Below, piece by piece: positions 31,967-47,137 of a DNA stretch of 64,000 nt. The DNA is taken from positions 3,804,258 through 3,868,257 of the forward strand of contig NZ_JACMIA010000001.1 of assembly GCF_014252955.1 (NCBI RefSeq), written 5' to 3'. A model generated the notes under the pieces. The model worked only from the letters and a program-made list of their open reading frames with translations. It did not search any database and was not told where the DNA came from. The number at the start of each line of letters is the position of its first letter. Position 1 is the first letter of the stretch. Made by a program: the position numbers and the translations under genes. The DNA is from Stappia sp. 28M-7 (lineage in GTDB: Bacteria; Pseudomonadota; Alphaproteobacteria; Rhizobiales; Stappiaceae).

Positions 31967-32214
31967 CCGGACCGGCTCCGCCCGATCCGCAGGCGTGGGG
32001 AAAAACCCCGCCGCGCCCGCGACATGACCGGTGGATGGCAGGCGTCCGCCCCCATGCCCCGGCTGCCACGGCGCCGCACGGGCTATAGGGCTGCGCAATA
32101 GCTCCGTGCATGCAAAGATATTTCCAGCCGGCCGCCGGACCTGCGATTTTGCGGCCAGCCAATTTCAGGGGCCGGCCCGCGTGCCGCGGCCCGCTCGAGT
32201 TCTCAGGGAAAACC
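31967..32214 (+). promoter_or_regulatory. Intergenic region before the acyl-CoA dehydrogenase operon
   Basis: A gap of 248 bp. A short GC hairpin GTGGGG-AAAAA-CCCCGC (about 31995-32011) could end the preceding ABC transcript, though it lacks a T-run. The LysR-type box A is at 32085-32102, and there is a palindromic GCATGC close to 32107-32112. No small gene is supported. Confidence 0.45.
32085..32102 (+). promoter_or_regulatory. LysR-type box A (ATAG-N6-GCAATAGC)
   Basis: ATAG-GGCTGC-GCAATAGC lies 113 bp before the acyl-CoA dehydrogenase start. It is identical in its 12 fixed positions and spacing to the boxes at 37867-37884 and 47043-47060, and fits T-N11-A (T32086, A32098). It is probably bound by the LysR regulator at 35606-36544. 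Confidence 0.65.
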
Positions 32215-33396
32215 ATGAACGCCTTCGATCCGACAGCCGAATACAGTGCCATTCGCGACGGTGTCGCCAAGGTCTGCGCCGAGTTCCCCGGCGAGTACTG
32301 GCGCGACCTCGACGCGCGCCGCGCCTATCCCAAGGACTTCGTCGACGCCCTGATCCGCGAGGGCTATCTCGCCGCAATGATCCCGGAGGAATACGGCGGG
32401 TCGGGCCTGAACCTGTCGGCTTCCGCCGTGATCCTGGAAGAGATCCACCGCAACGGCTGCAACGCCGCCGCCTGCCACGCGCAGATGTACACGATGGGCA
32501 CGGTGCTGCGGCACGGCAGCCCCGAGCAGAAGCAGCAATACCTGCCCGGCATCGCCGACGGCACGCTGCGCCTGCAGGCCTTCGGCGTGACCGAGCCGAC
32601 CAGCGGCACCGACACGCTGGCACTGAAGACGACCGCGCGGCGCGACGGCGACGACTACATCGTCAACGGACAGAAGATCTGGATCTCCCGCGCCGAGCAC
32701 TCCGACCTGATGGTGCTGCTGGCCCGCACGACGCCGCGCGACCAGGTGAAGTCGAAGACCGACGGACTGTCGGTGTTCCTCATCGACCTGCGCGAGCTCA
32801 AGGGCAACGGCGTCGAGATCCGCCCGATCCGCACGATGATCAACCACGCGACGACGGAGATCTTCTTCGACAACGCGCGCATCCCCGCCTCCAGCCTGAT
32901 CGGCGAGGAAGGCAAGGGCTTCCGCTACATCCTGTCCGGCATGAACTCCGAGCGCATCCTGATCGCCGCCGAGTGCATCGGCGATGCCAAGTGGTTCATC
33001 GAGAAGGGCTCCAATTACGCCAAGGAGCGGGTGATCTTCGGCGCCCCGATCGGCCAGAACCAGGGCGTGCAGTTCCCCCTCGCCCGCGCCTATGCGCACA
33101 TGATGGCGGCCGAGGCCATCGTCTACCGCGCCGCCGCCATGTACGATGCCGGCCACAATCCGGGCGTGGAGGCCAACAGCGCCAAGATGCTGGCCGCCGA
33201 CGCCAGCTGGGAAGCGGCCGAGGCCTGTTTGCAGACCCATGGCGGCTTCGGCTTCGCCGAGGAATACGACGTGGAGCGCAAGTTCCGCGAGGCGCGGCTG
33301 TACCAGGTGGCGCCGATCTCCACCAACCTGATCCTGTGCTTCATCGCCGAGCAGGTGCTCGGCCTGCCGAAATCCTACGGGGCCCCCAAGGCATGA
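32215..33396 (+). CDS. Acyl-CoA dehydrogenase family protein
   Basis: A 393-residue FAD-dependent acyl-CoA dehydrogenase with the N-terminal helical domain, middle beta domain (LQAFGVTEPTSGTDT near residue 120) and C-terminal helical domain (GGFGFAEEYDVERKFREARL near 345). The usual IYEGT segment that carries the catalytic glutamate in most family members is replaced by YQVAPIST, so the base must lie elsewhere, for instance on the helix used by isovaleryl-CoA dehydrogenase. Genes for PrpD-like and MaoC-like proteins follow with 4-bp overlaps. The operon suggests a branched C5 dicarboxylyl-CoA such as methylsuccinyl-CoA, but this is inference. Confidence 0.88.
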   Translation: MNAFDPTAEYSAIRDGVAKVCAEFPGEYWRDLDARRAYPKDFVDALIREGYLAAMIPEEYGGSGLNLSASAVILEEIHRNGCNAAACHAQMYTMGTVLRHGSPEQKQQYLPGIADGTLRLQAFGVTEPTSGTDTLALKTTARRDGDDYIVNGQKIWISRAEHSDLMVLLARTTPRDQVKSKTDGLSVFLIDLRELKGNGVEIRPIRTMINHATTEIFFDNARIPASSLIGEEGKGFRYILSGMNSERILIAAECIGDAKWFIEKGSNYAKERVIFGAPIGQNQGVQFPLARAYAHMMAAEAIVYRAAAMYDAGHNPGVEANSAKMLAADASWEAAEACLQTHGGFGFAEEYDVERKFREARLYQVAPISTNLILCFIAEQVLGLPKSYGAPKA

Positions 33397-34712
33397 CGCT
33401 GATCGACCGCATCCTCGACCTTGCCATGATGCCCGCCGGCGAGTTGCCGGCCGGCGCGCTCGCCATGGCCCGCTTCTCGCTGTTCGACTGGCTGGTCTGC
33501 GGACGGGCCGGCATCGATGAGCCGCTGGCGGGCAAGCTGCGCCAGCTTGCGGACGAGGAAGGCGGTCGCGGCACGGCCTCGGTGTTCGGCGGCGCGCCCG
33601 CCCCGGCGCGCATGGCCGCGCTGGTCAACGGCGCAACGAGCCACGCACTCGACTACGACGACACCCATTTCGGCCATATCGGCCACACCTCCGTCGGCAT
33701 CTATCCGGCCGCCCTTGCCGCCGGCGAGACGGTCGGCGCCAGCGCCCGCGCCGTGGTCGAGGCCTTCCTCGTCGGCGCGGAAGCCTCGGTGCGTATCGGC
33801 ATGGCGCTGGGGTCCGTCCACTACAATCGCGGCTTCCACCAGACGGCGACAGCCGGCGCCTTCGGCGCGGCGATCGCCGCCGGGCGCCTCTTCGGCCTGA
33901 CCCGCGACCAGATGCGCGTCGCCATCGGCCTGTGCGCTACCCGCGCCTCCGGCCTCAAGTCGCAGTTCGGCACGATGGGCAAGCCGTACAATGCGGGCAT
34001 CGCCGCCGCCAATGGCGTGGAATGCGCAAGGCTCGCGGCCCTCGGCTTCACCTCCGCCGACGACGGGCTGATGAACGCGCAAGGCTTCATCCCCACCCAT
34101 TCCGACAAGCCCGATCCGGACGCTGCCTGGCAGTCGCCGCCGCCGGAGACGTTCCTGTTCGAGGACATCAAGTACAAGCTGCATGCCTGCTGCCACGGCA
34201 CCCATGCGATGATCGAGGCGCTGCGCACGGTGCGTGGGCAGGAAGGCCTCGGCATCGGCGATGTCGAGGCGATGGTGCTGCACACCAACCCGCGCTGGCT
34301 GTCGGTCTGCGACATCAAGGCGCCGCGCACCGGGCTGGAGGTCAAGTTCAGCTACAACTGGCTGGCCGGCATGGTGCTGGAGGACCGCGATACCGCGCGC
34401 GACGACACCTATACCGACGCGCTGGCGACCGACGCCGGTCTTGCCGCCTTTGCCCCGCGCATCACCGTGGACGGCGACCCGGCCTTGAGCGACATGCAAG
34501 CCAAGGGCCTGCTCCGGCTGAAGGACGGGCGCAGCATCGCCTTCTCGCACGATCTTGCCCGCCGGCTCGGCGAGGCGGAGCTTTCCGCCGGGCTCACCGC
34601 CAAGGCGAAGGCGCTGCTCGGCGAGGAAGGCGAACGGCTGCGGCAGGCGGTCGAAAAGCTCGACCGGCTTACGGCCGCCGATCTCGGCGCCCTGGTGGGA
34701 GCACGGGCATGA
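33393..34712 (+). CDS. MmgE/PrpD family protein
   Basis: A 439-residue MmgE/PrpD-fold protein. This family includes 2-methylcitrate dehydratase and cis-aconitate decarboxylase (itaconate synthesis). Family segments visible include NGATSHALDYDDTHFGHIGH near residue 75, SVHYNRGFHQTATAGAFGAA near 140 and KLHACCHGTHAMIEAL near 262. The start overlaps the dehydrogenase stop (ATGA) and the end overlaps the MaoC gene (ATGA). In this operon it probably (de)hydrates or decarboxylates a tricarboxylic or branched dicarboxylic acid. The substrate is not determined by sequence. Confidence 0.88.
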   Translation: MTLIDRILDLAMMPAGELPAGALAMARFSLFDWLVCGRAGIDEPLAGKLRQLADEEGGRGTASVFGGAPAPARMAALVNGATSHALDYDDTHFGHIGHTSVGIYPAALAAGETVGASARAVVEAFLVGAEASVRIGMALGSVHYNRGFHQTATAGAFGAAIAAGRLFGLTRDQMRVAIGLCATRASGLKSQFGTMGKPYNAGIAAANGVECARLAALGFTSADDGLMNAQGFIPTHSDKPDPDAAWQSPPPETFLFEDIKYKLHACCHGTHAMIEALRTVRGQEGLGIGDVEAMVLHTNPRWLSVCDIKAPRTGLEVKFSYNWLAGMVLEDRDTARDDTYTDALATDAGLAAFAPRITVDGDPALSDMQAKGLLRLKDGRSIAFSHDLARRLGEAELSAGLTAKAKALLGEEGERLRQAVEKLDRLTAADLGALVGARA

Positions 34713-35545
34713 GCGACTATGCGGACTGGATCGGCAAGCAAAGGCGGGTGAGCGAAGCGCTCGACCGCGAGCTGCTGGAGCGCTACCGGGCAACCCTGTC
34801 GGGCATGCTGTGGCAGACCGACGTGCCGGCCGGCGTGCACTGGTGCCTGGCACCCGACGTGGTGGAGCCGGCGGAGCTCGGCCGCGACGGCCATCCGCGC
34901 ACCGGCATCTTCCTGCCGGCACTGCCCCTGCCCCGGCGCATGTGGGCGGGCGGCCACCTGGAATACCGCAAGGCCTTTTCGCCCGGCGACGAGGTGACCC
35001 GCGTGACGACGATCCGCGACGTGACCTTCAAGCAGGGCCGCAGCGGGCCGCTCGGTTTCGTCACGCTGGACCATGTCTACGAGGTGGCGGGCGAGGCCCA
35101 TGTCGTGGAGCGCCACGACATCGTCTATCGCGAAGACCCCAAGCCGGGCACGGCCACCATGCCACAGCGGGGGCCGCAGCCGGGCGAGGACTGGCAGGCG
35201 CTGGCGCGCTGGCAGGTGACGCCGACGCCGACGCTGCTGTTCCGCTATTCGGCGCTGACCTTCAACGGCCACCGCATCCACTACGACCAGCCCTACGCCA
35301 CCGGCGTGGAAGGCTATGACGGGCTGGTGGTGCACGGGCCGCTGCAGTCGATCTGGATGCAGAACCTTGCCGCCTCGCTGCTCGGCAAGCTGCCGGGCGC
35401 CTTCACCTATCGCGGCCTGTCGCCGCTGACCTGCAATCGGCCGGTGAGCGTCGAAGCGCGCGAGGGCGAGGACGGCGCCCTGGAGCTGCGCGTGCGGCGC
35501 GACGAGGATGGGGTCGTCACCATGCAGGCCACCGCGAAAGCCTAG
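34709..35545 (+). CDS. MaoC-type hydratase, mesaconyl-/itaconyl-CoA hydratase-like
   Basis: A 278-residue double hot-dog protein. The C-terminal half carries FRYSALTFNGHRIHYDQPYA near residue 180, the hydratase motif typical of mesaconyl-C4-CoA and itaconyl-CoA hydratases. Those enzymes add water to give (S)-citramalyl-CoA. The N-terminal half is a degenerate FAS1-like MaoC domain. It is the third gene of the operon. A CitE-type lyase that could cleave citramalyl-CoA to acetyl-CoA and pyruvate is encoded at 46056-46895. Confidence 0.82.
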   Translation: MSDYADWIGKQRRVSEALDRELLERYRATLSGMLWQTDVPAGVHWCLAPDVVEPAELGRDGHPRTGIFLPALPLPRRMWAGGHLEYRKAFSPGDEVTRVTTIRDVTFKQGRSGPLGFVTLDHVYEVAGEAHVVERHDIVYREDPKPGTATMPQRGPQPGEDWQALARWQVTPTPTLLFRYSALTFNGHRIHYDQPYATGVEGYDGLVVHGPLQSIWMQNLAASLLGKLPGAFTYRGLSPLTCNRPVSVEAREGEDGALELRVRRDEDGVVTMQATAKA

Positions 35546-35605
35546 GCAACTCACCCCCGGCGGCCGTCTGGCGCGCCGGAGCGAGTTTTGGAGCATTGCC
35601 GAGGG

Positions 35606-36544
35606 CTAGCTCTCGATCAGGTTGCCTTCCCAGATGCCGCGGCGCACCAGGTCGCGCGCGACCTCCAGCGTGATCTGCTCGACGGCCCGGCAGGCCCGGC
35701 TCGTCGAGCGGGAGGGTTTGCTGACCAGATAGACCGGGCGCGAGATCGTCGGCTCGACGATGGGCGCCTTGAGCAGCTCGCCCCGGGCGACGAAATCGTG
35801 GACGGCGGCGGGGGCGAAGATCGTGTGGCCGGAGCCGCGCGCCACCAGTTCCTTGATCTGGGTCATCGCGTCCATCTCGATGACGACGTTGAGATTGACG
35901 TCGCAGGCCGCCGCGTGCCGCTCGATGGTCTTGCGCAGCCCGTGCGAGACGCCGGGCAGGATCATCTCCAGCTTCTCCAGCGCCTGCATCGGCACCGGCG
36001 CGCCGGGCGGGGTGTCGAGCGGCCAGGTATCGGGCGCGGAGAAGAAGAACAACTGCTCGTCCAGCACATGGATGATGCGGAAATGCTCGACCTTCTCCAG
36101 GTCGTAGATGAAGCCGATATCGACCGTCTCGTCCTCGATCCAGCTCTTGATGTAGCCGCTCATCGCCTCGATGGCGCGCAGCCGCACATCCGGCAGCTCG
36201 ACCCGCACGGTCTCGGCCAGCGGCACCGACATCACCATCGACACCGACGGCGGCATGCCGAAGCCGACCTTGCCGCGAATGCCGCCGCCAAGGTCGCGCA
36301 TCTCCGAGATGCAATGCTCCATGCTGGCGCAGATCTCGCGCGCATGGCGCACCAGCAGGTGCCCTTCTTCGGTCAGCACCGTGCCACGCGGCGAGCGCTC
36401 GACCAGCTGCACGCCGAGCTCCTGCTCCATGCGCTGGACGTATTGCGACAGGGACGGCTGGGCAACGCCCAGGACCTGCGCCGCCGCGGAGAGCGACGGC
36501 GCCTCGGAAATGGCGATGAAGTAGCGAAGGTGACGAATGTCCAT
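35606..36544 (-). CDS. LysR-family regulator, candidate controller of the ATAG-N6-GCAATAGC regulon
   Basis: A 312-residue LysR protein. The winged helix lies at about 1-60 (SLSAAAQVLGVAQPSLSQYVQRMEQEL), and the effector domain has a short N-terminal extension of the NAC/CynR kind. It lies 21 bp after the alcohol dehydrogenase gene on the same strand and is probably co-transcribed, divergent from the cyclase/HAAT operon. A LysR-type T-N11-A box in that divergent region (37867-37884) recurs before two other operons, which makes this protein the best candidate for their common regulator. Confidence 0.88.
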   Translation of the reverse strand: MDIRHLRYFIAISEAPSLSAAAQVLGVAQPSLSQYVQRMEQELGVQLVERSPRGTVLTEEGHLLVRHAREICASMEHCISEMRDLGGGIRGKVGFGMPPSVSMVMSVPLAETVRVELPDVRLRAIEAMSGYIKSWIEDETVDIGFIYDLEKVEHFRIIHVLDEQLFFFSAPDTWPLDTPPGAPVPMQALEKLEMILPGVSHGLRKTIERHAAACDVNLNVVIEMDAMTQIKELVARGSGHTIFAPAAVHDFVARGELLKAPIVEPTISRPVYLVSKPSRSTSRACRAVEQITLEVARDLVRRGIWEGNLIES

Positions 36545-36565
36545 GGAAGGCAGATTAGCCGGTTT

Positions 36566-37690
36566 TCAGCCGATCTCCACCACCTGACGGATCGCCGATC
36601 CGTCCTCCAGCCGGTCCATGGCGAGGTTGATGTCGGCCAGCGGCAACCGGTGGCTCAGCATCTTTTCCACCGGCAGCAGGCCGCGGCGATGCAGGGCGAA
36701 CATGCGCGGCAGGTCGCGCTGCGGCACGCAGGAGCCGATGTAGCTGCCCTTCAGCGAGCGCTCCTCGGCAACCAGCTTGAGCGCATTGAGCGCCATGCGC
36801 GAATCCGGATGCGGCAGGCCGGCGGTGACGGTGGTGCCGCCGCGCCGGGTGATGTCGTAGGCGGTCTCCAGCGCCCGCACCGAGCCGGCCAGCTCGAACG
36901 CGTAGTCGACGCCGCCGCCGGTGAGGTCTCGCACCGCTTCGACGACGCCCTCGCCCGCCTTGACCGCATCGGTCGCGCCCATCTGGCGGGCGACCTCGAG
37001 CTTGTTCTCGAACGGGTCGATGGCGACGATCTGCCCGGCCCCGGCCGCCGCAGCGCCCAGGATCGCCGCCATGCCGACACCGCCGATGCCGACCACCGCG
37101 ACCTTGGCCCCCGGCTTGATATGGGCGGTGTTGAACACCGCGCCCGCGCCCGTCAGCATGGCGCAGGAAAACAGCGTCGAGATGTGCGGGGCGATGTCCT
37201 GGTCGACCTTGACCAGCGACTGGCGCGCGACGACCGCATGGCTGGCAAAGGCGGAAATGCCGACGTGATGATGCACGGGCCGCCCGTCCATCGACAGCCG
37301 GCGGTGGCCGGTCATCAGCTCGCCGACGCCGTGATGCTTGGCCGCCTTCTCGCACAGGGCCGGCCGGCCTTCCGCGCAAGGGGTGCAGCGGCCGCAGCCG
37401 GGCGCGAAGATGCACACGACATGATCGCCGGGCGCAAGATCGTCGACGCCCGCGCCGACCTCCTCGACATAGCCGGACGCCTCGTGGCCGAGCACCATCG
37501 GCAGCGGGCGCGGCCGGGTGCCGTTGATCACCGAGAGGTCGGAATGGCAAACGCCGGCGGCCGCGATGCGGATCAGGACCTCGCCGGGACCTGGCGGCGC
37601 CAGCTCGACCTCGCGCACGGTCAGCGGCTTCTCCGCAGCGTAGTTGCCCTTGACCTCGCCCCGCTCCAGCACCGCCGCCGTGATCTTCAT
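36566..37690 (-). CDS. Zinc-dependent alcohol dehydrogenase, class III-like
   Basis: A 374-residue medium-chain dehydrogenase. Catalytic zinc ligands are C48, H69 and C176. The structural zinc lobe has four cysteines (C99, C102, C105, C113). The NAD site is VVGIGGVGMAA near residue 195. It resembles the AdhC/aryl- or fatty-alcohol dehydrogenases rather than formaldehyde-specific ones. It starts 273 bp from the divergent cyclase gene. With the aldehyde dehydrogenase gene at 43736 it could oxidise an alcohol to an acid before CoA activation. Confidence 0.9.
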   Translation of the reverse strand: MKITAAVLERGEVKGNYAAEKPLTVREVELAPPGPGEVLIRIAAAGVCHSDLSVINGTRPRPLPMVLGHEASGYVEEVGAGVDDLAPGDHVVCIFAPGCGRCTPCAEGRPALCEKAAKHHGVGELMTGHRRLSMDGRPVHHHVGISAFASHAVVARQSLVKVDQDIAPHISTLFSCAMLTGAGAVFNTAHIKPGAKVAVVGIGGVGMAAILGAAAAGAGQIVAIDPFENKLEVARQMGATDAVKAGEGVVEAVRDLTGGGVDYAFELAGSVRALETAYDITRRGGTTVTAGLPHPDSRMALNALKLVAEERSLKGSYIGSCVPQRDLPRMFALHRRGLLPVEKMLSHRLPLADINLAMDRLEDGSAIRQVVEIG

Positions 37691-37963
37691 GTCTCCACCC
37701 TCTTGCTAGTCGGCCTGCCGCCGCCGCCGAAGCGCGGCATTGCCCGTTTCATCCCGATGGTGCACCCTGAAGCCCTCCCGGCCGACGGGTCGCACCCCGC
37801 TGTCGGGCGGATGCTAGCGGCAAACACGCGTGAAGACAGAGCTTAAATGGCTTTTCGGCTTCGGTCATAGGTTTTTGCAATAGCCGAGCACCAAGCAAAT
37901 TATTGGTGCACCCTGTCGGCAATACCTAGGCTTCTTCATCTCACATGCTTTGGGAGGAAAGCC
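37691..37963. promoter_or_regulatory. Divergent promoter region between alcohol dehydrogenase/LysR and cyclase/HAAT operons
   Basis: A 273-bp region. It holds LysR-type box B (37867-37884) and, directly after it, a dyad GCACCAA-N8-TTGGTGC (37888-37909) that could be the activation half-site or an operator. A second GGCAATACC follows at about 37918-37926. No gene is supported between 37691 and 37860. Confidence 0.5.
37867..37884 (+). promoter_or_regulatory. LysR-type box B (ATAG-N6-GCAATAGC)
   Basis: ATAG-GTTTTT-GCAATAGC lies 80 bp before the cyclase start. It has the same 12 fixed bases and spacing as boxes A and C, and T-N11-A is satisfied. It is the copy nearest a LysR gene. Confidence 0.68.
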
Positions 37964-38929
37964 ATGAGGGTCTTCAACTGCACTGCGGCGCTCGCCGGGC
38001 TCGCGCTCGTCGTCGCCACCAGCCTTGCCCAGGCCGACAATCATAATCACCAATGGACGGAATCGCGCTGGGGCAAGGACGACCAGATCGGGTCGGCGAA
38101 CCTGATGACGCCGGAGCGCGTCAAGCTCGCCGCCGAACTCGTCACCACCGGCAAGGTCTACAGCCTCGGCATGATCGTGGGCAGCGACACGCCGGCCTTT
38201 CCGCCGCGCAGCCTGTCCGTGACGGTGCTCCAGCCCAACCAGATCACCAATAGCGGGCTGGGCGAAAACGCCTTTACCTACAACGACGACATCTTCATGG
38301 GCTGGCTCGGCATCGGCCCGCAGATCGACGGTCTCGGCCATGCCGGCATCGACCATGTCTACTACAACGGCCACAAGGCCGGCGACTTCGCCAAGGCCGC
38401 GGGCCTGACCGAACTCGGCCTGCACAACCTGCCGGGCCTCGTTGGCCGCGGCGTGCTGCTCGACATGGCCAAGTTCTACGGCGTCGACATGGTCGAGGAA
38501 GGCAAGGCCTACACTGCCGACGACATCAAGGCCGCCGCCGCCCAGCAGGGAGTCGAGCTGCGCGAGGGCGATGTCGTCCTGTTCAACTCCAACTGGATGA
38601 ACCTGCTCGACGGGCCGAACGCGGATCCCAAGCGCTTCGGCGCGGCGGAACCGGGCCTCGGCGTCAGCGGCGCCGAATATCTCGCCGAGCTGGGCGTGAT
38701 GGCGGTGGGCGCCGACACCTGGGGCATGGAGGTCGTTCCGGCCGAGGTCGAGGGCGAGGCATTCCGCGCCCACCAGATCCTGCAGCCGCAGAACGGAATC
38801 TACATCCTGGAGAACATGGATACCCGCGAACTGGCGAAGGACGAGGCGTACGAGTTCCTCTTCGTTCTCGGCCAGGCCCGCCTCAAGGGCGCGGTACAGA
38901 TGATCATCAACCCGATCGCGATCCGCTGA
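37964..38929 (+). CDS. Cyclase family protein (kynurenine-formamidase-like), exported
   Basis: A 321-residue protein of the putative cyclase/metal-dependent hydrolase family (PF04199). A signal peptide of about 25 residues (ends SLAQA) predicts a periplasmic location. The metal motif appears as QIDGLGHAGIDHVYYNG near residue 120, a variant of the HxGTHxD pattern, as in other members outside the kynurenine branch. Family members hydrolyse cyclic amides, lactones or formamides. It is the first gene of the operon that continues with the HAAT importer, so it may act on the substrate before uptake. The exact substrate is unknown. Confidence 0.85.
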   Translation: MRVFNCTAALAGLALVVATSLAQADNHNHQWTESRWGKDDQIGSANLMTPERVKLAAELVTTGKVYSLGMIVGSDTPAFPPRSLSVTVLQPNQITNSGLGENAFTYNDDIFMGWLGIGPQIDGLGHAGIDHVYYNGHKAGDFAKAAGLTELGLHNLPGLVGRGVLLDMAKFYGVDMVEEGKAYTADDIKAAAAQQGVELREGDVVLFNSNWMNLLDGPNADPKRFGAAEPGLGVSGAEYLAELGVMAVGADTWGMEVVPAEVEGEAFRAHQILQPQNGIYILENMDTRELAKDEAYEFLFVLGQARLKGAVQMIINPIAIR

Positions 38930-38991
38930 CCGGGCAAACAGACACGCGGGCGGCACGCAATCGCCCGCGGCTACTCGAAGGGAGTGAAACC

Positions 38992-40278
38992 ATGCGGAAA
39001 TTCCTGCTCACCACGGCAGCGATCCTCGCTGCCCCGATCGCCGCGCTGGCGGCGGAGAAGCCGGCCGAGCTCAAGGTCGGCGTCACCACGTTCCTCACCG
39101 GCCCGGCCTCCGTGTTCGGCGTGCCGGCGCGCGATGCCGCCGAGATCATCGTCGGCAAGCTGAACGCCGAAGGCGGCATCGGCGGCGTGCCGGTCGCCCT
39201 GTCCTTCATCGACGAGGGTGCCGGCGCCGAGGCGCTGACCACCGAGTTCCGCCGCCAGGTCGAGGGCGGCGCGCATGCCATGATGGGCGCGATCTCCTCC
39301 GGCAACTGCCAGACGCTCGCCCCGCTGGCCGAGGACCTCCAGGTCCTGAACCTGATGTGGGACTGCGGCACCCAGCAGATCTTCGAGAAGAACGACTACA
39401 AGTACGTCTTCCGCACCCAGGCCAATGCCACGCCGGAAATGCTCGCCACCGTGCTCTACCTGCTGAAGGTGAAGCCGGACTTCAAGACCATCGCCGTCGT
39501 CAACCAGGACTACGCCTGGGGCCGTGACAGCTGGCAGATCTTCTCCACCGCGCTGAAGGCCCTGAAGCCGGACGTCGAGGTGGTCGGCGAGTTCTTCCCC
39601 AAGTTCGGCGCCGCCGACTTCTCGACCGAGATCTCCCGCCTGCAGGCGATGCAGCCCGACGTCATCCTGTCGACCTCCTGGGGCGGCGACCTCGACACGT
39701 TCATCCAGCAGGCGGCCCAGCGCGGCCTGATGAACACCTCGACCTTCGTCATCCCGCTGGCCGAAAGCTCCCTGGAGCGTCTCGGCTCGACCCTGCCGGC
39801 CGGCCACATCGTCGGCGCGCGCGGCGACCACTACTTCCTGCATCCGGACCGTCGCGACGACGCGGACTTCAAGGAGTTCATGGCAGCCTTCGAGGAAAAG
39901 ACCGGCGCCCATGCGATCTACCCGGTCTTCCACATGTCGCAGGCGCTTGCCGCGCTGAAGGCGGCCTACGAGAAGGCGATCGCGGCCAAGGGCGGCGAGT
40001 GGCCGGAAGAGGACGAGGTCATCGCGGCCTTCGAGGGCCTGACCTTCCAGGGTCTCGGCCGTGAGGTCACCATCCGCGAGGACAACCAGGGCATCGAGGC
40101 CCAGCTCCTCGGCATGAGCGTCCAGAGCGGCGAATACCCCTTCGCCACGCTGGAAAACATCATGATCTTCGACGGCGCCGCACTGACCACCCCGGTCGGC
40201 CAGGAGTCGGTCGAATGGGTCAGCAAGCTCACGCCGGAATACGCCGCGAGCGTGAAGGTCGACAGCTACGAGAAGTAA
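38992..40278 (+). CDS. Branched-chain amino acid type (HAAT) ABC transporter substrate-binding protein
   Basis: A 428-residue Peripla_BP_6 family protein with a signal peptide ending in ALAA. LKVGVTTFLTGPASVFG opens the mature protein and IVVNQDYAWGRDSW-type segments follow. HAAT proteins bind amino acids but also aromatic acids, amides and short carboxylates. Position between a cyclase gene and CoA-pathway genes argues for a carboxylate. It lies 62 bp after the cyclase gene, with GGGAGTG before the ATG. Strong hairpins follow. Confidence 0.9.
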   Translation: MRKFLLTTAAILAAPIAALAAEKPAELKVGVTTFLTGPASVFGVPARDAAEIIVGKLNAEGGIGGVPVALSFIDEGAGAEALTTEFRRQVEGGAHAMMGAISSGNCQTLAPLAEDLQVLNLMWDCGTQQIFEKNDYKYVFRTQANATPEMLATVLYLLKVKPDFKTIAVVNQDYAWGRDSWQIFSTALKALKPDVEVVGEFFPKFGAADFSTEISRLQAMQPDVILSTSWGGDLDTFIQQAAQRGLMNTSTFVIPLAESSLERLGSTLPAGHIVGARGDHYFLHPDRRDDADFKEFMAAFEEKTGAHAIYPVFHMSQALAALKAAYEKAIAAKGGEWPEEDEVIAAFEGLTFQGLGREVTIREDNQGIEAQLLGMSVQSGEYPFATLENIMIFDGAALTTPVGQESVEWVSKLTPEYAASVKVDSYEK

Positions 40279-40296
40279 GAAGCGCCGGGACAGAAC

Positions 40297-40380
40297 GAGC
40301 GGATCTGGGCAGGCGTGCCCGGGTCCGCTCTCCCCGGCCTTCCTCCCGGCCCGCCCCGGACGGCACCCCGTCCGGGGCGG
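40297..40380 (+). other. Two hairpins between HAAT binding-protein and permease genes
   Basis: Hairpin 1 pairs GAGCGGA (40297-40303) with TCCGCTC (40324-40330) and includes an inner GGGC/GCCC. Hairpin 2 is a perfect 13-bp stem, CCGCCCCGGACGG (40351-40363) with 40368-40380, loop CACC. No T-run follows. They probably stabilise the upstream transcript or attenuate into the permeases. Confidence 0.65.
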
Positions 40381-40443
40381 TTGCCGAACACGCCGCCGCA
40401 GAAGACCTGCGGACTGTTCCGCCCATCGACCGAATGGACGACC

Positions 40444-41349
40444 ATGAACCTCACCATCTTCCTTCTGGCCCTGTTCGACGGCATCGCCTATGCGGCCCTC
40501 GTCTTCAGTGTCGCCGTGGGGCTCACGCTGATCTTCGGCGTGATGCGCATCCTCAACGTCGCGCACGGTTCGCTCTATGCGGTCGGCGCGTATCTGACGG
40601 CCACGCTCACCGGCTACGTGCTGGCGCTCGGTTTCGCGCCGCTGCTGGCCTTCCCGCTGATGATCGTCTCGGCGGTCCTGGTCGGCGTGCTGCTCGGCGG
40701 CCCGATCGAATGGCTGCTGCTGCGCCGGATCTACAACAAGCCGGAAGTGCTCCAGCTGCTGGTCACCTTCGCCGTCTTCATGATCCTGGAGGACGTGCAG
40801 CGGCTGGTCTGGGGCACCCAGCCCTATTTCCAGGCCTCGGCGCTGCAGGCGCTCGGCATGGTGAAGGTGTTCGGCGTCAACTACACCGTCTACCAGCTGA
40901 TCCTGTTGCCGCTGCTGGCGCTGACGCTGCTGGTGGGCCTGCGCTTCTTCCTGCGCCACACCATCCTCGGCAAGCTGATCCTGGCGACCACCGAGGACCG
41001 CGAGGCGGCCCAGTCCATCGGCATCGACGCCGACAAGGTGTTCCTGGTGACCTTTATCGTCGGCGCGGCCCTTGCCGGGCTCGGCGGCGCGCTGGCCTCG
41101 CCCACCACCTCGATCCTGCCGGGCATGGGCGCGGACATGATCGTGCTGTCCTTCGCCGTGGTGGCGACCGCAGGCCTCGGCCAGATCGAGGGCGCGGCCT
41201 TCACCGCGCTGCTGATCGGCCTCGGCCGCTCCTTCGCGGTCTATGTCTGGCCCGAGACGGCGGTGCTCGTCCCCTATCTCATCATGCTCGTCGTCCTGCT
41301 GGTGCGCCCGGAAGGGCTGTTCGGCAGCCCGACCGCGCGCAAGATCTGA
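40444..41349 (+). CDS. HAAT ABC transporter permease, LivH type
   Basis: A 301-residue permease with about eight hydrophobic segments and the LivH pattern (DGIAYAALVFSVAVGLTLIFGVMRILNVAHGS split over the first 40 residues). The coupling region is LATTEDREAAQSIGID near residue 185. The ATG at 40444 follows the two hairpins; the longer frame from 40315 would translate them. It lies 11 bp before the LivM gene. Confidence 0.9.
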   Translation: MNLTIFLLALFDGIAYAALVFSVAVGLTLIFGVMRILNVAHGSLYAVGAYLTATLTGYVLALGFAPLLAFPLMIVSAVLVGVLLGGPIEWLLLRRIYNKPEVLQLLVTFAVFMILEDVQRLVWGTQPYFQASALQALGMVKVFGVNYTVYQLILLPLLALTLLVGLRFFLRHTILGKLILATTEDREAAQSIGIDADKVFLVTFIVGAALAGLGGALASPTTSILPGMGADMIVLSFAVVATAGLGQIEGAAFTALLIGLGRSFAVYVWPETAVLVPYLIMLVVLLVRPEGLFGSPTARKI

Positions 41350-41359
41350 GGAGGAACGG

Positions 41360-42313
41360 ATGACCTTTCGTCTGGCCATTCCGGCCCTTCTCGTGCTCGC
41401 CATCGCCGCGATCCCCTTTGCCGCGCCGCAGCTCCAACTCCTGATGAACCTGGCGCTCGCCAAGGGCATCGCCGTCGTCGGCGTGACGGTGCTGCTGCGC
41501 GCCGGCCAGGTGTCCTTCGGCCACGCGCTCTACTTCGCCATTGCCGCCTATGCCGCCGCCTTCCTGTCGGCCTCCATGCCCGGCGCGGACCTCATTCTGG
41601 TGCTCGTCGTCGCGGTCGCCGGCGCGGTGCTGTCCGGCGTCATCGTCGGCCTGTTCGTGGTGCGCTACCGCGGCATCTTCTTCGGCATGCTGAACCTTGC
41701 CTTCTCGATGATCTTCTGGTCGATCCTGGAGAAGTTCTACCACTACACGGGCGGCGCCGACGGCATCCGCCTGCCGCGCCCGACCGTGTTCGGCATGGCG
41801 CTGGAGCGCGGTCCGTTCGAGCTGATCATGTTCTACCTGTCGGTGGCCCTGGTGCTCCTGCTCGGCTGGTTCACCATGCGCTGGTTCGCCTCGCCCGCCG
41901 GCCAGATCTTCCAGACCATCAAGACCAACGAGACCCGCCTGCAATATCTCGGCGTCTCGCCGCAGCGCGCGCTGCTGTCCGGCTACATCCTGTCGGCGGC
42001 CCTGTGCGGCACCGGCGGCGTCATCATGGGCATCGTCCAGGGTGTCGTGACGCCGGAATTCGCCTGGTGGATCCGTTCGGGCGAGATGGTCTTCATCGCC
42101 GTGCTCGGCGGTGCGGGCTCGGTCGCCGGCGCCTTCGTCGGCGCGGTCATCTACGAGACCATCCGCACCTACGCCTCGGCCTTTGCCGGCGACGTGTGGC
42201 AGATGGTGCTCGGCGGCTTCCTGCTCGTCATCATCCTGTTCGCACCCAAGGGTGTGATCGGCATCTACGACGCGGCGCTTGCCCGCCTGACCGGCAAAGG
42301 GAGGTCGGAATGA
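41360..42313 (+). CDS. HAAT ABC transporter permease, LivM type
   Basis: A 317-residue permease with about nine hydrophobic segments. Family features are VLLRAGQVSFGHALYFAIAAY near residue 45 and TNETRLQYLGVSPQRALLSGY near 190. GAGGAGG-like ribosome sequence precedes the ATG at 41360. Its stop overlaps the LivG start (ATGA). Confidence 0.9.
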   Translation: MTFRLAIPALLVLAIAAIPFAAPQLQLLMNLALAKGIAVVGVTVLLRAGQVSFGHALYFAIAAYAAAFLSASMPGADLILVLVVAVAGAVLSGVIVGLFVVRYRGIFFGMLNLAFSMIFWSILEKFYHYTGGADGIRLPRPTVFGMALERGPFELIMFYLSVALVLLLGWFTMRWFASPAGQIFQTIKTNETRLQYLGVSPQRALLSGYILSAALCGTGGVIMGIVQGVVTPEFAWWIRSGEMVFIAVLGGAGSVAGAFVGAVIYETIRTYASAFAGDVWQMVLGGFLLVIILFAPKGVIGIYDAALARLTGKGRSE

Positions 42314-43059
42314 GCGAGATTCTTCTCGAAGCCCGAAACCTGCAGATCAGCTTCGGCGGCGTGGTCGCTGCCGACGACGTGTCGCTCGCCATCGAGCGGG
42401 GCAAGAACCTTGCGATCATCGGCCCGAACGGCGCCGGCAAGACGACGTTCCTGAACATCTGCACCGGCTGGATCAAGCCGACCAAGGGCAAGGTCTATTT
42501 CGAGGGCCAGGACGTCACGCCGCTGCCGCCGCGCCGCATCGTGCGGCTCGGCGTAGCCCGTGCCTTCCAGATCCCGCAGCTGTTCACCGAGCACACCGCG
42601 CTGGAGAACCTGCTGATCTCGGCCGCCGCCCGCGAGCAGCTGCGCCATCCGCTGCAGGACCTGCACCGCATCCGCGAGCGGGCCGAGATGCTGCACCTGC
42701 TCGACATGGTCGGCTGCGCCGATGTCGCCGACCGGCTGGTGGTGGAGCTCTCGGAAGGCCAGCGCAAGCTGGTCGACATCGCCGTGGCGCTGGCCCTGCG
42801 GCCGAAACTGCTGCTGATGGACGAGCCGACCTCTGGCGTCGCCTCGTCGGAGAAGTTCAAGATCATGGAAATCCTGGTCAAGGCCCTGTCCGAGGCGAAG
42901 GTGACGAGCGTCTTCGTCGAGCACGACATGGGCATCGTCTCGCGCTACGCCGACGAGGTGGCCGTGTGGGCCGCCGGCCGGCTGCAGATGCAGGGATCGC
43001 CGGAGGAAATCCTGCGCCATCCCGACGTGATCCGCGACGTCATCGGGGAGGCCGTGTGA
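42310..43059 (+). CDS. HAAT ABC transporter ATP-binding protein, LivG type
   Basis: A 249-residue ATPase with Walker A GPNGAGKT (38-45). The signature motif is LSEGQRK rather than the usual LSHGQ, followed by Walker B LLLMDEPTSGV. It works with the LivF-type ATPase encoded immediately downstream (TGATG overlap). Confidence 0.92.
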   Translation: MSEILLEARNLQISFGGVVAADDVSLAIERGKNLAIIGPNGAGKTTFLNICTGWIKPTKGKVYFEGQDVTPLPPRRIVRLGVARAFQIPQLFTEHTALENLLISAAAREQLRHPLQDLHRIRERAEMLHLLDMVGCADVADRLVVELSEGQRKLVDIAVALALRPKLLLMDEPTSGVASSEKFKIMEILVKALSEAKVTSVFVEHDMGIVSRYADEVAVWAAGRLQMQGSPEEILRHPDVIRDVIGEAV

Positions 43060-43736
43060 TGCTGGAGCTGAGCAATGTCGGCGCCTCGATCGGCATCATC
43101 CCGATCCTGCGCAATCTCGACGTCACCGTCGGCGCCGCCGAGACCGTTGCCCTGATCGGCCGCAACGGCGCCGGAAAGACCACCTTCCTGCGCTCGATCA
43201 TGGGCTTCACCACGGTCACCGGGTCGATCCGCTTCGAGGGTGAGGACATCACCGGCCTGTTGCCGGCGAAGCGTCCGGGCCTGGGCATCGGCTACGCGCC
43301 GGAGGACCGCCGCCTGTTCTCTGCCTTCACGGTGGAGGAGAACATCCTGCTGCCGGCGCAGGTCGCCAAGCTGGATGCGGCCGAGACCAAGCGCCGGCTC
43401 GACCGGGTCTACGACATCCTGCCGGAGCTGAAGACCATGGCCGGCCGCCCGGCCGGCAACGTCTCCGGCGGCCAGGGCAAGATGGTCGCGCTTGGCCGCG
43501 CCCTGATGCTGGGCACGCGCCTCGTCATGCTGGACGAGCCGTTCCAGGGCCTCGCCCCGGCACTGGCGCTGCGCTACGCCGAGGCGCTGAAGGCGCTGCG
43601 CGACGCCGACCGGACGGTGACCCTGATCATCACCGAATCCAACCCCTCCCTGCTGCGCGGCTTTGCCGGCCGCACGCTCCTGATCGAGCGCGGAGAAGTC
43701 TCCGAAAGCTCGCTCGAGCACGAAAGGACACACTGA
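43059..43736 (+). CDS. HAAT ABC transporter ATP-binding protein, LivF type
   Basis: A 225-residue ATPase with Walker A GRNGAGKT (34-41), a VSGGQGK signature and Walker B LVMLDEPFQGLAP. It completes the HAAT importer. It overlaps both neighbours by one base, including the aldehyde dehydrogenase gene, which shows that uptake and oxidation genes are translated together. Confidence 0.92.
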   Translation: MLELSNVGASIGIIPILRNLDVTVGAAETVALIGRNGAGKTTFLRSIMGFTTVTGSIRFEGEDITGLLPAKRPGLGIGYAPEDRRLFSAFTVEENILLPAQVAKLDAAETKRRLDRVYDILPELKTMAGRPAGNVSGGQGKMVALGRALMLGTRLVMLDEPFQGLAPALALRYAEALKALRDADRTVTLIITESNPSLLRGFAGRTLLIERGEVSESSLEHERTH

Positions 43737-45190
43737 TGACTGCCACCAACGCGCCGCTGCCGCGCGCCCTCAACCTGATCGACGGGACATGGGTGCCGGC
43801 GGCTTCCGGCAAGGAGATGGACGTGCGCTCGCCGATCGACGGCGAGGTCTTCACGAAGATCGCCGACAGCGGTCCCGAGGATGTCGATGCCGCGGTCATG
43901 GCCGCCCGCGCCGCCTTCGATGGCGGTCCCTGGTCGAAGCTGACGGCGGCCGAGCGCGGCCGGCTGATGGTCCGCCTCGGCAACCGGATCCTGGAAGAAG
44001 CCGAGGCGCTTGCCCGGCTGGAGACCATGGACAACGGCAAGCCGATCAAGCAGTCGCGCGCCGACATGATCGCCACCGCCCGCTACTTCGAATATTACGG
44101 CGGCGCGGCCGACAAGGTGCATGGCGAGGTCATTCCCTTCCTCAACGGCTACAACGTGCAGGTCTTCCGCGAGCCGCACGGCGTCACCGGCCACATCATC
44201 CCGTGGAACTACCCGGCGCAGATGTTCGGCCGCTCGATCGCCCCGGCGCTGGCCATGGGCAATGCCACCGTTCTGAAGCCGGCCGAGGATGCCTGCCTGA
44301 CGGCGCTGCGCATCGGCGAGCTGGCGATGGAGGTCGGCTTCCCGGCCGGAGCCATCAACATCGTCACCGGCCGCGGCGAGGTCGCCGGCAAGGCCCTGTC
44401 CGAGCACCGCCAGGTCGACTTCCTGTCCTTCACCGGCTCGCCGGAAGTCGGCGTGCTGATCCAGACGGCAGCGGCGCGCAACTTCATCGGTTGCACGCTG
44501 GAGCTCGGCGGCAAGTCGCCGCAGATCATCTTCGACGATGCCGATCTCGACGCGGTCTATCCGGTGCTGGTCAACGCCATCATCCAGAACGGCGGCCAGA
44601 CCTGCTCGGCCGGCTCGCGCGTGCTGCTGCAGCGCGGCATCTACGACAAGGTGATGGCCGAGCTGAAGACCCGCTTCGAGGCGGTCGCGGCCTCCGATTC
44701 CGGCGAGGATGCCGTGCTCGGACCGCTGATCTCCGCACGCCAGAAGAAGCGGGTGGAGACCTATATCGCCGAGGCCGATGCGCCGCTGGTCGCCCGCGGC
44801 ACGGTGGCCAAGGGCTCGCCGGAAGGCGGCTACTACGTCGCCGCGGCCCTGTTCGGCCCCTGCGACCCGAACTCGAAGATCGCCCAGGAGGAAGTGTTCG
44901 GCCCCGTGCTGTGCGCCATTCCCTTCGAGGACGAGGCGGACGCGATCCGCATCGCCAACGGCACCGAATACGGCCTTGTCGCCGGCATCTGGACCCGCGA
45001 CGGCGGCCGCCAGCAGCGCATGGCCAAGGCGATGCATTGCGGCCAGGTCTTCATCAACGGCTACGGCGCGGGCGGCGGCATCGAACTGCCCTTCGGCGGC
45101 ATCCGCAAGTCCGGCCACGGCCGCGAGAAGGGCTTCGCGGCGCTGCACGAGTTCTCCCACATCAAGACCGTCGTCCACAATCACGGCTGA
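43736..45190 (+). CDS. NAD(P)-dependent aldehyde dehydrogenase
   Basis: A 484-residue aldehyde dehydrogenase with catalytic C290 (GGQTCSAGS) and general base E256 (LELGGKSP), plus the oxyanion asparagine of IIPWNYP (N158). It resembles betaine/aminobutyraldehyde-type enzymes with broad substrate range. Coupled to the HAAT genes and followed by an SDR gene, it probably oxidises an aldehyde formed from the imported compound, or made by the alcohol dehydrogenase at 36566-37690. Confidence 0.92.
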   Translation: MTATNAPLPRALNLIDGTWVPAASGKEMDVRSPIDGEVFTKIADSGPEDVDAAVMAARAAFDGGPWSKLTAAERGRLMVRLGNRILEEAEALARLETMDNGKPIKQSRADMIATARYFEYYGGAADKVHGEVIPFLNGYNVQVFREPHGVTGHIIPWNYPAQMFGRSIAPALAMGNATVLKPAEDACLTALRIGELAMEVGFPAGAINIVTGRGEVAGKALSEHRQVDFLSFTGSPEVGVLIQTAAARNFIGCTLELGGKSPQIIFDDADLDAVYPVLVNAIIQNGGQTCSAGSRVLLQRGIYDKVMAELKTRFEAVAASDSGEDAVLGPLISARQKKRVETYIAEADAPLVARGTVAKGSPEGGYYVAAALFGPCDPNSKIAQEEVFGPVLCAIPFEDEADAIRIANGTEYGLVAGIWTRDGGRQQRMAKAMHCGQVFINGYGAGGGIELPFGGIRKSGHGREKGFAALHEFSHIKTVVHNHG

Positions 45191-45203
45191 GGACAGCAAA
45201 GAC

Positions 45204-45953
45204 ATGCGACTTCAAGGAAAGACCACTCTCGTCACGGGCGCTGCCTCCGGCTTCGGCAAGGGCATCGCCGAGACCTATGTGCGCGAAGGCGCCAAGGTGG
45301 CGATCGTCGACCTGAACGAGGACGGCGCCAAGGCCGTGGCCGCCGAGCTCGGCGATGCAGCCATCGCCATCAAGTGCGACGTCTCCAAGGCCGAGGACGT
45401 GGCGGCGGCCGTGGCGAAGACCTGCGATGCCTTCGGCTCGCTCGACATCGTCGTCAACAATGCCGGCTGGACCAACCCGAACCGTCCGCTGATGGAGACG
45501 GACGAGGCGACCTTCCGCAAGATCTACGACATCAACGTGCTGTCGATCTTCCACATGACCAAGACCTGCGTGCCGGTGTGGCGCGAGCAGGGCGCCGGCG
45601 TGATGATCAATGTCGGCTCGACCGCCGGCATCCGTCCGCGCCCGGGCCTGACCTGGTACAACTCGTCGAAGGGCGCGGTGAACCTGATGACCCGCAGCCT
45701 TGCCGTCGAGCTGGCGCCCGACAAGATCCGCGTCAACGGCATCGCCCCGGTGATGGGCGTCACCGGCCTGCTGGAGCAGTTCATGGGCATGCCGGACACG
45801 CCGGAGAACCGGGCGAAGTTCCTGGCGACCATCCCGCTCGGCCGCCTGTCGCAGCCGCGCGACATCGCCAATGCCGCGCTCTACCTCGCCTCGGACGAAG
45901 CCGACTTCATCACCGGCGTCATCCTCGAGGTCGATGGCGGCCGCACCATCTGA
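45204..45953 (+). CDS. SDR family oxidoreductase
   Basis: A 249-residue classical short-chain dehydrogenase with TGAASGFG (11-18), NNAG and the catalytic set S139, Y152, K156. Acidic D36 after the second strand favours NAD(H). It resembles the glucose 1-dehydrogenase/3-oxoacyl-ACP-reductase-like group that oxidises secondary alcohols. It is the last gene of the cyclase/HAAT operon, followed by a strong terminator. Confidence 0.92.
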   Translation: MRLQGKTTLVTGAASGFGKGIAETYVREGAKVAIVDLNEDGAKAVAAELGDAAIAIKCDVSKAEDVAAAVAKTCDAFGSLDIVVNNAGWTNPNRPLMETDEATFRKIYDINVLSIFHMTKTCVPVWREQGAGVMINVGSTAGIRPRPGLTWYNSSKGAVNLMTRSLAVELAPDKIRVNGIAPVMGVTGLLEQFMGMPDTPENRAKFLATIPLGRLSQPRDIANAALYLASDEADFITGVILEVDGGRTI

Positions 45954-45993
45954 ACAAAAGGCAGCCCGGGGTCCCCTGCCCCAACCACTGAAA

Positions 45994-46026
45994 ACGCCCG
46001 TGCCGATGGCACGGGCGTCTTTTTTT
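45994..46026 (+). terminator. Rho-independent terminator of the HAAT operon
   Basis: ACGCCCGTGCC (45994-46004) pairs perfectly with GGCACGGGCGT (46008-46018) around a 3-nt loop and is followed by CTTTTTTT (46019-46026). This is the clearest factor-independent terminator in the window. Confidence 0.92.
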
Positions 46027-46055
46027 GCGCAAGTCCCGAGGGACAGCCGGCCGGA

Positions 46056-46895
46056 TCAGCCGGCGGCGGAACTCGCCCGCGCCAGGATCTGCCGGGCCTT
46101 GATGATCACCGGCGCATCGACCATCGCGCCGTCGACGGCGACTGCCGCAGCGCCCCCTTCCACGGCCGCAAGCACCCGCTGCGCCCACTCGCACTCGGCC
46201 TCAGACGGCGCGAAACCCCGCCGCGCCGGGGCGATCTGCGCCGGATGGATGATCAGCTTGCCGGCAAATCCCATTTCCACCGCATGGCGGCAGTCGGAGG
46301 TGATCAGGTCCTCGTCCTTGAGCGCGGTCGTCACCCCGTCGATGGGGCCGGACTGGCCGGCAAGGCGCGCGGCCATCGCCAGCGCGAAGCGGGCCGGGCG
46401 CAGCACCTCGCGCTCATGCGCCATGCCGAGATCGGCGGCAAGATCGATGGAGCCGAAGGCCATCCGGGCGCTGGCGCCGGCGACCTCACCCGCATTGGCA
46501 AGGCCGCGGGCGCTTTCCACCAGGGCGATCACCGGCAGGCCGGTGGCCTCCGCAACGCCGGCGCAATCGGCCGCCGTCTCCGCCTTGGGCAGGACGACGC
46601 CGGCAAGGCCGGCAATGCCGGCGCAGGCGGCAAGGTCCGCCGCGTGCCAGGGCGTGCCGCTGGCATTGACGCGCACCAGGATGCTCGCCGCGCCGACCAG
46701 CGGGGCCAGCGCCTCGGCGAGACCGGCGCGCGCGGCCTCCTTGGCGTCCGGCGCCACCGCGTCCTCCAGATCGACGAAAACCGCATCGGCGCCAGCGGCG
46801 ACCGCCTTGGCGAAACGCTCCGGCCGGTCGCCGGGCACGAAGAGCGGCAGGGTGATGCGGTCGACCTTCTCGGTCGTCTCGTTGGGATGTGTCAT
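46056..46895 (-). CDS. HpcH/HpaI aldolase family, CitE-like CoA-ester lyase
   Basis: A 279-residue CitE-type lyase. LPLFVPGDRPERFAKA opens the protein, FVDLEDAV gives the acidic magnesium site near residue 45, and FGSIDLAADLG lies near 145. Relatives cleave citramalyl-CoA to acetyl-CoA and pyruvate, or malyl-CoA and beta-methylmalyl-CoA. It is divergent from a class III CoA-transferase gene with 242 bp between. Together with the MaoC hydratase at 34709 it would complete a citramalyl-CoA route. No citF/citD genes are nearby, so it is not citrate lyase. Confidence 0.88.
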   Translation of the reverse strand: MTHPNETTEKVDRITLPLFVPGDRPERFAKAVAAGADAVFVDLEDAVAPDAKEAARAGLAEALAPLVGAASILVRVNASGTPWHAADLAACAGIAGLAGVVLPKAETAADCAGVAEATGLPVIALVESARGLANAGEVAGASARMAFGSIDLAADLGMAHEREVLRPARFALAMAARLAGQSGPIDGVTTALKDEDLITSDCRHAVEMGFAGKLIIHPAQIAPARRGFAPSEAECEWAQRVLAAVEGGAAAVAVDGAMVDAPVIIKARQILARASSAAG

Positions 46896-47137
46896 GATGG
46901 GGTCCGCCAGATGGGTTGGTCAGAAGTGCAGGCGCCCAAAAGAACCCGAGCGGCGCCCGCGTGCCAATAGCGAATTGCGCCCGCCCTCATTGATTGCGGC
47001 TATGGCGGAGGCGGGCGGCAGAGCCAGAATGAGTGCCGGGGCATAGATTGCGGCAATAGCTGCGGGCGCTCCCCTCTATTACTCCCGATGCCCCGCTTCG
47101 GGCATACTGGCGCCACTTACAGGGAGAAGCTTTGAAA
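46896..47137. promoter_or_regulatory. Divergent region between CitE-like lyase and CoA-transferase genes
   Basis: Contains LysR-type box C (47043-47060) in the orientation of the CoA-transferase gene, and a dyad CAAT-AGCGA-ATTG near 46967-46979 that includes CCAATAGC, a one-mismatch copy of the box core. The region is otherwise without features. Confidence 0.45.
47043..47060 (+). promoter_or_regulatory. LysR-type box C (ATAG-N6-GCAATAGC)
   Basis: ATAG-ATTGCG-GCAATAGC, with the internal dyad ATTGC-G-GCAAT, lies about 77 bp before the CoA-transferase ATG. Same 12 fixed bases, spacing and orientation as boxes A and B. Confidence 0.68.

Follow-up and report, generated by a model that had tools for sequence, protein, structure and literature searches.

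A conserved element with a directional half-site at four promoters, probably bound by a LysR-type regulator, in a putative C5-dicarboxylate gene cluster of Stappia sp. 28M-7

The DNA analyzed here, hereafter the window, is a stretch of 64,000 nucleotides from the genome of Stappia sp. 28M-7 (contig NZ_JACMIA010000001.1, positions 3,804,258 to 3,868,257, forward strand). It carries a cluster of catabolic genes, a gene for a LysR-type transcriptional regulator (LTTR) and four intergenic copies of a conserved element that is probably recognized by this regulator. The elements, the regulator gene and the gene next to it are listed below (CoA, coenzyme A; ABC, ATP-binding cassette).

32085–32122, plus strand: element 1, dyad ATAG-N7-CAAT (32085–32099) and ATATT half-site (32118–32122), before the acyl-CoA dehydrogenase, MmgE and MaoC genes; aligned in seven Stappia genomes
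37867–37904, plus strand: element 2, dyad (37867–37881) and TTATT half-site (37900–37904), before the cyclase, ABC transporter and aldehyde dehydrogenase genes, in the gap divergent from the alcohol dehydrogenase and LysR genes
47043–47080, plus strand: element 3, dyad (47043–47057) and CTATT half-site (47076–47080), before the gene for a CaiB-type CoA transferase
46966–47003, minus strand: element 4, ATAG-N7-CAAT (47003–46989) and CTATT half-site, before the gene for a CitE-like lyase (ATG at 46895)
35606–36544, minus strand: LysR-type regulator of 312 amino acids, proposed binder of the four elements, from near full-length LysR-family matches and co-occurrence
36566–37690, minus strand: zinc alcohol dehydrogenase (family match), upstream of and codirectional with the LysR gene

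The original prediction had described three identical boxes, ATAG-N6-GCAATAGC, at 32085–32102, 37867–37884 and 47043–47060. These coordinates are correct, and all three copies are intergenic and on the plus strand. The distances to the start codon, given as 113, 80 and about 77 base pairs (bp), are also right, with 112 bp (start at 32215), 79 bp (start at 37964) and 71 or 77 bp (TTG at 47132 or ATG at 47138) between box and codon. The whole genome (5,126,068 bases) was scanned with this pattern and with the reversed pattern as a control. Only three exact copies exist in the 5.13 Mb, all on the plus strand and all within one 15-kb region, and the control gave no exact match genome-wide. With one mismatch allowed, the box is found at three additional places in the genome, fewer than the five matches of the control. 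With up to two mismatches, the window contains six matches versus 1.09 expected, a number reached by none of 100 shuffles. No exact box lies at an unrelated gene of this genome, and the same holds for the extended unit described below. The chance estimate made for the three copies, 128000/4^12, is arithmetically right but post hoc, the motif having been picked after being seen. Because the motif of the window was chosen in this way, tests on other genomes are freer of this weakness.

Comparison of orthologous loci revealed that the 18-mer represents one version of a larger unit. This extended unit consists of a dyad, ATAG-N7-CWAT, and a half-site, NTATT, that starts 22 bp beyond CWAT on the promoter side. 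In regulator-bearing loci of other genera the constant part is ATAG-N7-CWAT, which is a perfect palindrome in some of them, such as ATAGG-N5-CCTAT in locus L099. The dyad is a T-N11-A box, as is typical of LTTR operators, and the TAT at +22 corresponds to the second, helically phased site that such operators have on the promoter side. The earlier description of the motif as a T-N11-A box thus fits, but the conserved unit is longer and is not fixed at GCAATAGC. Four extended units are present in the genome of Stappia sp. 28M-7, all of them in the putative C5-diacid cluster. Three promoters had been noted before, the fourth copy, the second half-site and the polarity having been overlooked. Element 4 escaped because it continues as CAATGAG rather than CAATAGC. 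Its dyad lies 93 bp upstream of the ATG of the lyase gene, and it is exact in genomes G002, G003, G004, G006 and G012 and not in G001. With element 4 on the minus strand and element 3 on the plus strand, the gap between the CitE and CaiB genes contains one element per direction.

The geometry was analyzed in 80 ortholog loci, the best 80 of 251 relatives found. ATAG-N7-CWAT-N19-TATT is found exactly in 37 of these loci and with at most one mismatch in 60, compared with 0 and 1 for the reversed control. Moving NTATT to nine other places, at shifts between -5 and +10 bp, left an exact unit in no or one locus and a unit with up to one mismatch in 3 to 9 loci. The half-site at +22 was already noted from earlier loci when the 80 were collected, some genomes being common to both sets. 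Leaving aside the five Stappia loci and scoring perfect palindromes once per strand, the spacer N7 gave 119 ATAG-CWAT matches in 47 of the other 75 loci, versus 8 to 46 matches for each other spacer from 0 to 20. Among the 43 boxes that face pathway genes (32 loci), 36 have TAT at offset 22 from CWAT, and no other offset from 4 to 44 has it more than twice. Boxes that face the alcohol dehydrogenase or LysR gene have TAT at +22 in 1 case out of 25. After thinning to one site per genus label and gene, the +22 half-site is present on the pathway side in 24/30 sites versus 0/20 on the dehydrogenase/LysR side, and without Stappia in 19/25 sites on the pathway side. Genus labels were taken from record titles, each unnamed metagenome bin counting as its own label. 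In the window, the copy located between the cyclase gene and the alcohol dehydrogenase/LysR pair had been placed correctly, but its NTATT half-site is on the cyclase side and not on the dehydrogenase/LysR side, where the dyad is present and NTATT absent. This absence suggests negative autoregulation, or no activation, in that direction.

Could such similarity result from chance, or from common ancestry of nearby promoters devoid of function? The motif was selected after sighting and the Stappia sequences are closely related, which is what this explanation would draw on. However, the copies have different spacers and flanks, these parts also diverge from species to species whereas most half-sites are retained, and both the N7 peak and the +22 half-site reappear outside the genus. 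The genome-wide confinement of the units, the +22 polarity and the controls with slid half-sites also oppose chance, and we regard this explanation as barely credible. The alignment of seven Stappia genomes gives the same picture at the scale of single promoters, the half-sites being mostly conserved blocks within diverged gaps. For example, box 3 of G003 is unchanged around an unrelated spacer.

Another possibility is that box and NTATT form a shared core promoter of the -35/-10 type and not an operator. By inspection of the sequence, NTATT resembles a weak -10 and lies, in element 2, about 17–18 bp after a TTGCAA stretch. What is conserved, however, is a dyad whose N7 spacer is constant and whose symmetry continues outwards, with G at -3 in 23/30 and C at +17 in 25/30 sites. 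In addition, the extended unit is absent from the rest of the genome, the element tracks one regulator gene, and a further invariant block, which may be the -10, follows in three of the four promoters. A core promoter is thus very improbable. The invariant blocks, identical in the seven Stappia genomes, are GGGCATACT at 47100, ACCTAGGCT at 37924 and GGACCTGCGAT at 32137. They lie 19–24 bp after the start of NTATT and are possibly -10 elements.

The protein encoded at 35606–36544 is a LysR-type regulator, as judged from the extent of its matches: residues 1–298 for the NAC model and for CynR, 4–293 for solved OxyR and 1–276 for solved BenM. It scores 157.9 and 132.3 bits against the NAC and CynR equivalogs, under their cut-offs of 309 and 277, and 91.3 bits against the OxyR equivalog (NCBIfam PRK11151), far under the 329-bit cut-off. 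By these curated cut-offs it is classified as neither OxyR, NAC nor CynR. An ortholog (87–100% identity) is encoded in 7 of 14 Stappia genomes. At least one exact box is present in six of these seven genomes (3, 3, 3, 3, 2 and 1 copies) and in none of the seven others. G002, G004 and G006 have three exact boxes each, G012 has two, G003 one and G001 none. The check for loss of the box in orthologous promoters therefore came out largely negative: the box is mostly kept in Stappia, and where copies are not exact, in G012, G003 and G001, variants are found at the same promoters. In these three genomes the extended unit occurs four, three and two times, respectively. All 25 extended units of the seven regulator-bearing Stappia genomes lie within this cluster, and the specific feature is this confinement where the regulator is present.

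The boxes might instead belong to another regulator, either an OxyR-type protein or a second LysR-type protein encoded in the window, the LysR protein at 35606–36544 then being a bystander. ATAG-N7-CTAT is the published OxyR dyad (PMC5002191, PMC8787470; all published sources are cited here from excerpts of their text). The second LysR-type gene (49894–50826, minus strand) is divergent from an NMT1-like (PF16868) gene (50906–51958, plus strand) and is found 2.8 kb beyond box 3. None of the four extended units of the genome lies in the gap between these two genes; all four are within the putative C5-diacid cluster, and in other genera the units are arranged around orthologs of the LysR gene at 35606. 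A homolog of the second LysR protein (E-value of 1e-20 or better, no better overlapping match) was seen in 1 of the 80 loci, with 25% identity, although the loci extend no further than 10 kb from the regulator, too short a range to include a gene lying as far away as in the window. In Stappia, presence and absence of the box track the gene at 35606. OxyR as the binder was considered because of the letters of the dyad; it was set aside in view of the confinement of the units of this genome to a catabolic cluster and of the score of the regulator, far under the OxyR cut-off. Another binder is consequently improbable, and the LysR protein at 35606–36544 stays the best candidate.

Outside the genus, 13 orthologs of this protein (48–70% identity) were found among 397 genomes of the order. 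ATAG-N7-CWAT-RGC is present at all 13 loci within one mismatch, a level that also gives matches inside genes, and exactly at 8. These loci are not independent of the 80, because several genomes overlap (e.g. L090 with L138). In the 75 non-Stappia loci, the density of the core dyad is 0.186 per kb up to 2.5 kb from the regulator gene versus 0.040 beyond. Records in which the putative regulon recurs are titled Stappia, Roseovarius, Salipiger, Rhodovulum, Paracoccus and others. Another record, L174, is titled Oceanobacillus sp. HTM 045 and has 68% G+C across this locus and close homologs of the Stappia genes (59% identity for the regulator, 74% for livH); it is probably mislabelled or contaminated. 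As a control centered on a target gene, the 400 bp upstream of the acyl-CoA dehydrogenase gene were examined in 30 of the 116 genomes matching this enzyme, those with the closest orthologs, a match of at least 48% identity counting as presence of the regulator. The core dyad is found in 8 of 12 genomes with the regulator versus 1 of 18 without (Fisher p 6e-4, relatedness ignored). The link to the LysR gene at 35606–36544 made in the original prediction is thus supported by co-occurrence in Stappia (6/7 versus 0/7), by the same dyad near orthologs of 48–74% identity in other genera, and by its rarity where the regulator is missing (1/18 versus 8/12).

The genes downstream of the elements are the following.

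32215–33396, plus strand: acyl-CoA dehydrogenase, methylsuccinyl-CoA dehydrogenase-like by gene context (family match under every equivalog cut-off; analogy of gene set to PMC12290011, in excerpt)
33393–34712, plus strand: MmgE/PrpD family protein, methylsuccinate isomerase-like by gene context (family match; PMC12290011, in excerpt)
34709–35545, plus strand: MaoC/FAS1-dehydratase-like hydratase (PDB sequence relatives 8huc and 8khg)
37964–38929, plus strand: PF04199 putative cyclase (family match)
38992–43736, plus strand: Liv/Urt-type ABC transporter, with a binding protein from 38992, one permease from 40315 and one ATPase from 42966 (family matches; the genes at 41350–42965 lie outside the search)
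43736–45190, plus strand: aldehyde dehydrogenase (family match)
46056–46895, minus strand: CitE/RipC-like lyase, citramalyl-CoA lyase-like (under the curated RipC cut-off)
47132–48271, plus strand: CaiB-type CoA transferase, itaconate CoA transferase-like by gene context (family match)

These genes look like a pathway for itaconate/methylsuccinate breakdown, a substrate suggested by analogy of gene content. All families of the itaconate/methylsuccinate set are represented in the window, namely a CaiB-type CoA transferase, a MaoC/FAS1-type hydratase, a CitE-like lyase, an acyl-CoA dehydrogenase and an MmgE/PrpD protein. The hydratase has only two PDB relatives at E-values up to 0.001, 8huc (194 bits) and 8khg (192 bits), the latter named itaconyl-CoA hydratase, to which it is thus related. 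The best PDB relatives of the lyase are 9nzb and 8khl, acyl-CoA lyase beta chains (214 bits), which we take to be citramalyl-CoA lyase from Pseudomonas. In Pseudomonas aeruginosa and Cupriavidus necator, these five enzyme families also make up the itaconate/methylsuccinate cluster (PMC12290011, PMC9875883), in which the dehydrogenase acts on methylsuccinyl-CoA and the MmgE/PrpD protein on methylsuccinate (PMC12290011). This source also counts 78 alphaproteobacterial methylsuccinate isomerases; its main text contains no word starting with regulator, LTTR or Stappia.

We propose, with a probability of roughly 0.8, that the four elements are recognition/activation sites of the LysR protein encoded at 35606–36544, which would control a C5-dicarboxylate regulon of four promoters. 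Several observations weigh against this proposal. In the ortholog set, 20 of the 80 loci lack the extended unit even with one mismatch allowed, and 28 lack an exact core dyad. Among 131 oriented core matches, 46 could not be assigned to a position upstream of a window-gene homolog and 4 lie inside such a homolog. A second, smaller peak, ATAG-N16-CWAT, with 46 matches in 27 of the 75 non-Stappia loci, is unexplained. Within Stappia, G003 keeps a single exact box and G001 none, and element 1 has ATAA instead of ATAG in G003 and CATT instead of TATT in G001. Two of the compared genomes are incomplete (G001, 89%; G007, 85%). Upstream of the acyl-CoA dehydrogenase gene, 4 of the 12 regulator-bearing genomes have no dyad, four of the eight positive genomes are Stappia, and the extended unit is seen in 4/12 genomes with the regulator, all of them Stappia, versus 0/18 without; some of these 18 genomes have weaker LysR relatives. 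Regarding the pathway, the lyase scores 147.8 bits with the RipC/Ccl model NF038242, whose cut-off is 375, and is outscored by another gene of the same genome (181.2 bits). Finally, six Stappia genomes devoid of the regulator contain seven matches to the extended pattern, next to apparent other LysR genes, so the geometry of the pattern is generic and common to other LysR proteins. By reading of translations, a LysR-like frame is divergent from an ABC-permease-like frame in L201, L204, L208, L210 and L218, with a complete or near-complete element of four half-sites (ATAG-N7-CWAT and further in-phase half-sites) at its start. In L207 and L211 the LysR-like frame, read in the same way, is divergent from a CaiB-like frame and the extended pattern lies in the gap. 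Assignment of these seven matches to OxyR was dropped, as all of them adjoin apparent other LysR genes.

LysR-type regulators bind a recognition dyad as a dimer, a second dimer occupies a weaker in-phase site, and the inducer changes this arrangement. The same scheme is also drawn from PMC5002191, in its excerpted part. In the case of Stappia, a LysR dimer would occupy the high-affinity dyad ATAG-N7-CWAT as the recognition site. A second dimer would bind the weaker site marked by NTATT, 22 bp or two helical turns nearer to the promoter and probably near the -35 region, so that the protein would act as a tetramer. On the basis of its position, we infer that this +22 site acts as the activation site. 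Upon inducer binding, the regulator would switch on four predicted transcription units: the acyl-CoA dehydrogenase, MmgE and hydratase genes; the cyclase, ABC transporter and aldehyde dehydrogenase genes; the CoA transferase gene; and the CitE-like lyase gene. The homology of these genes to the itaconate/methylsuccinate set points to a C5 dicarboxylate, or its CoA ester or a precursor of it, as the probable inducer.

Comparison with known systems shows partial likeness in each case. The operators of BenM and CatM are 4-7-4 dyads, ATAC-N7-GTAT, and serve a catabolic regulon. BenM is among the closest solved relatives of the Stappia protein by sequence, yet the match is weak (69 bits), and both half-site letters and pathway differ. 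OxyR operators are described in excerpt as two tandem ATAG-N7-CTAT dyads 7–10 bp apart (PMC8787470), and as the 15-bp repeats IR1 and IR2, ATAG-n7-CTAT, with centres at -66 and -44, a distance of 22 bp (PMC5002191). The Stappia elements share the half-site letters, the N7 dyad and the 22-bp phase; in contrast, little more than one half-site of their second dyad can be recognized, the target genes are catabolic and the regulator falls below the NCBIfam cut-off for OxyR. The nearest functional parallel, likened by description only, is ItcR of Yersinia pseudotuberculosis, a LysR-type itaconate sensor encoded beside ccl, ich and ict (PMC11275114, in excerpt). Both regulators stand beside itaconate catabolism genes or their likely counterparts. 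However, ItcR is described there as acting on one divergent operon, repressed until itaconate binds, whereas Stappia has four promoters and adds a transporter, an alcohol dehydrogenase, an aldehyde dehydrogenase and a cyclase. The cluster of Pseudomonas aeruginosa and Cupriavidus necator, as excerpted from PMC12290011 and PMC9875883, has the CoA transferase, hydratase, lyase, acyl-CoA dehydrogenase and MmgE/PrpD protein in common with that of Stappia. Unlike it, the Stappia genes, which encode predicted enzymes, are split over several units and accompanied by the ABC transporter, the PF04199 protein and the alcohol and aldehyde dehydrogenases. No published description of this regulon was found in the titles and abstract openings of the openly licensed literature. 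The type of regulator is ordinary, and the regulon, which recurs in related bacteria, seems to be previously undescribed.

A more far-reaching possibility, which we put forward tentatively and consider rather doubtful, is the existence of an undescribed LysR subfamily, widespread in Alphaproteobacteria, whose signal would be a C5 dicarboxylate or a cyclic precursor. An unrecognized natural compound, e.g. a methyl- or methylene-butyrolactone or the corresponding hydroxy acid, might then be channelled into the itaconate/methylsuccinate pathway by the PF04199 protein, the Liv-type transporter and the alcohol and aldehyde dehydrogenases. Such a regulon would be modular, with the direction of control set by one NTATT half-site 22 bp from a shared dyad.

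For Stappia and its relatives, a defined regulon is thus obtained, with one probable regulator, four promoters, a quantitative operator model and a probable pathway. Its interest lies mainly in the conserved polarity rule and in the pathway assignment. The rule, a dyad common to both sides and NTATT on the pathway side only, provides a testable handle on how LysR proteins may choose direction at divergent promoters. If the pathway is true, the regulator would be a candidate natural sensor for C5 dicarboxylates.

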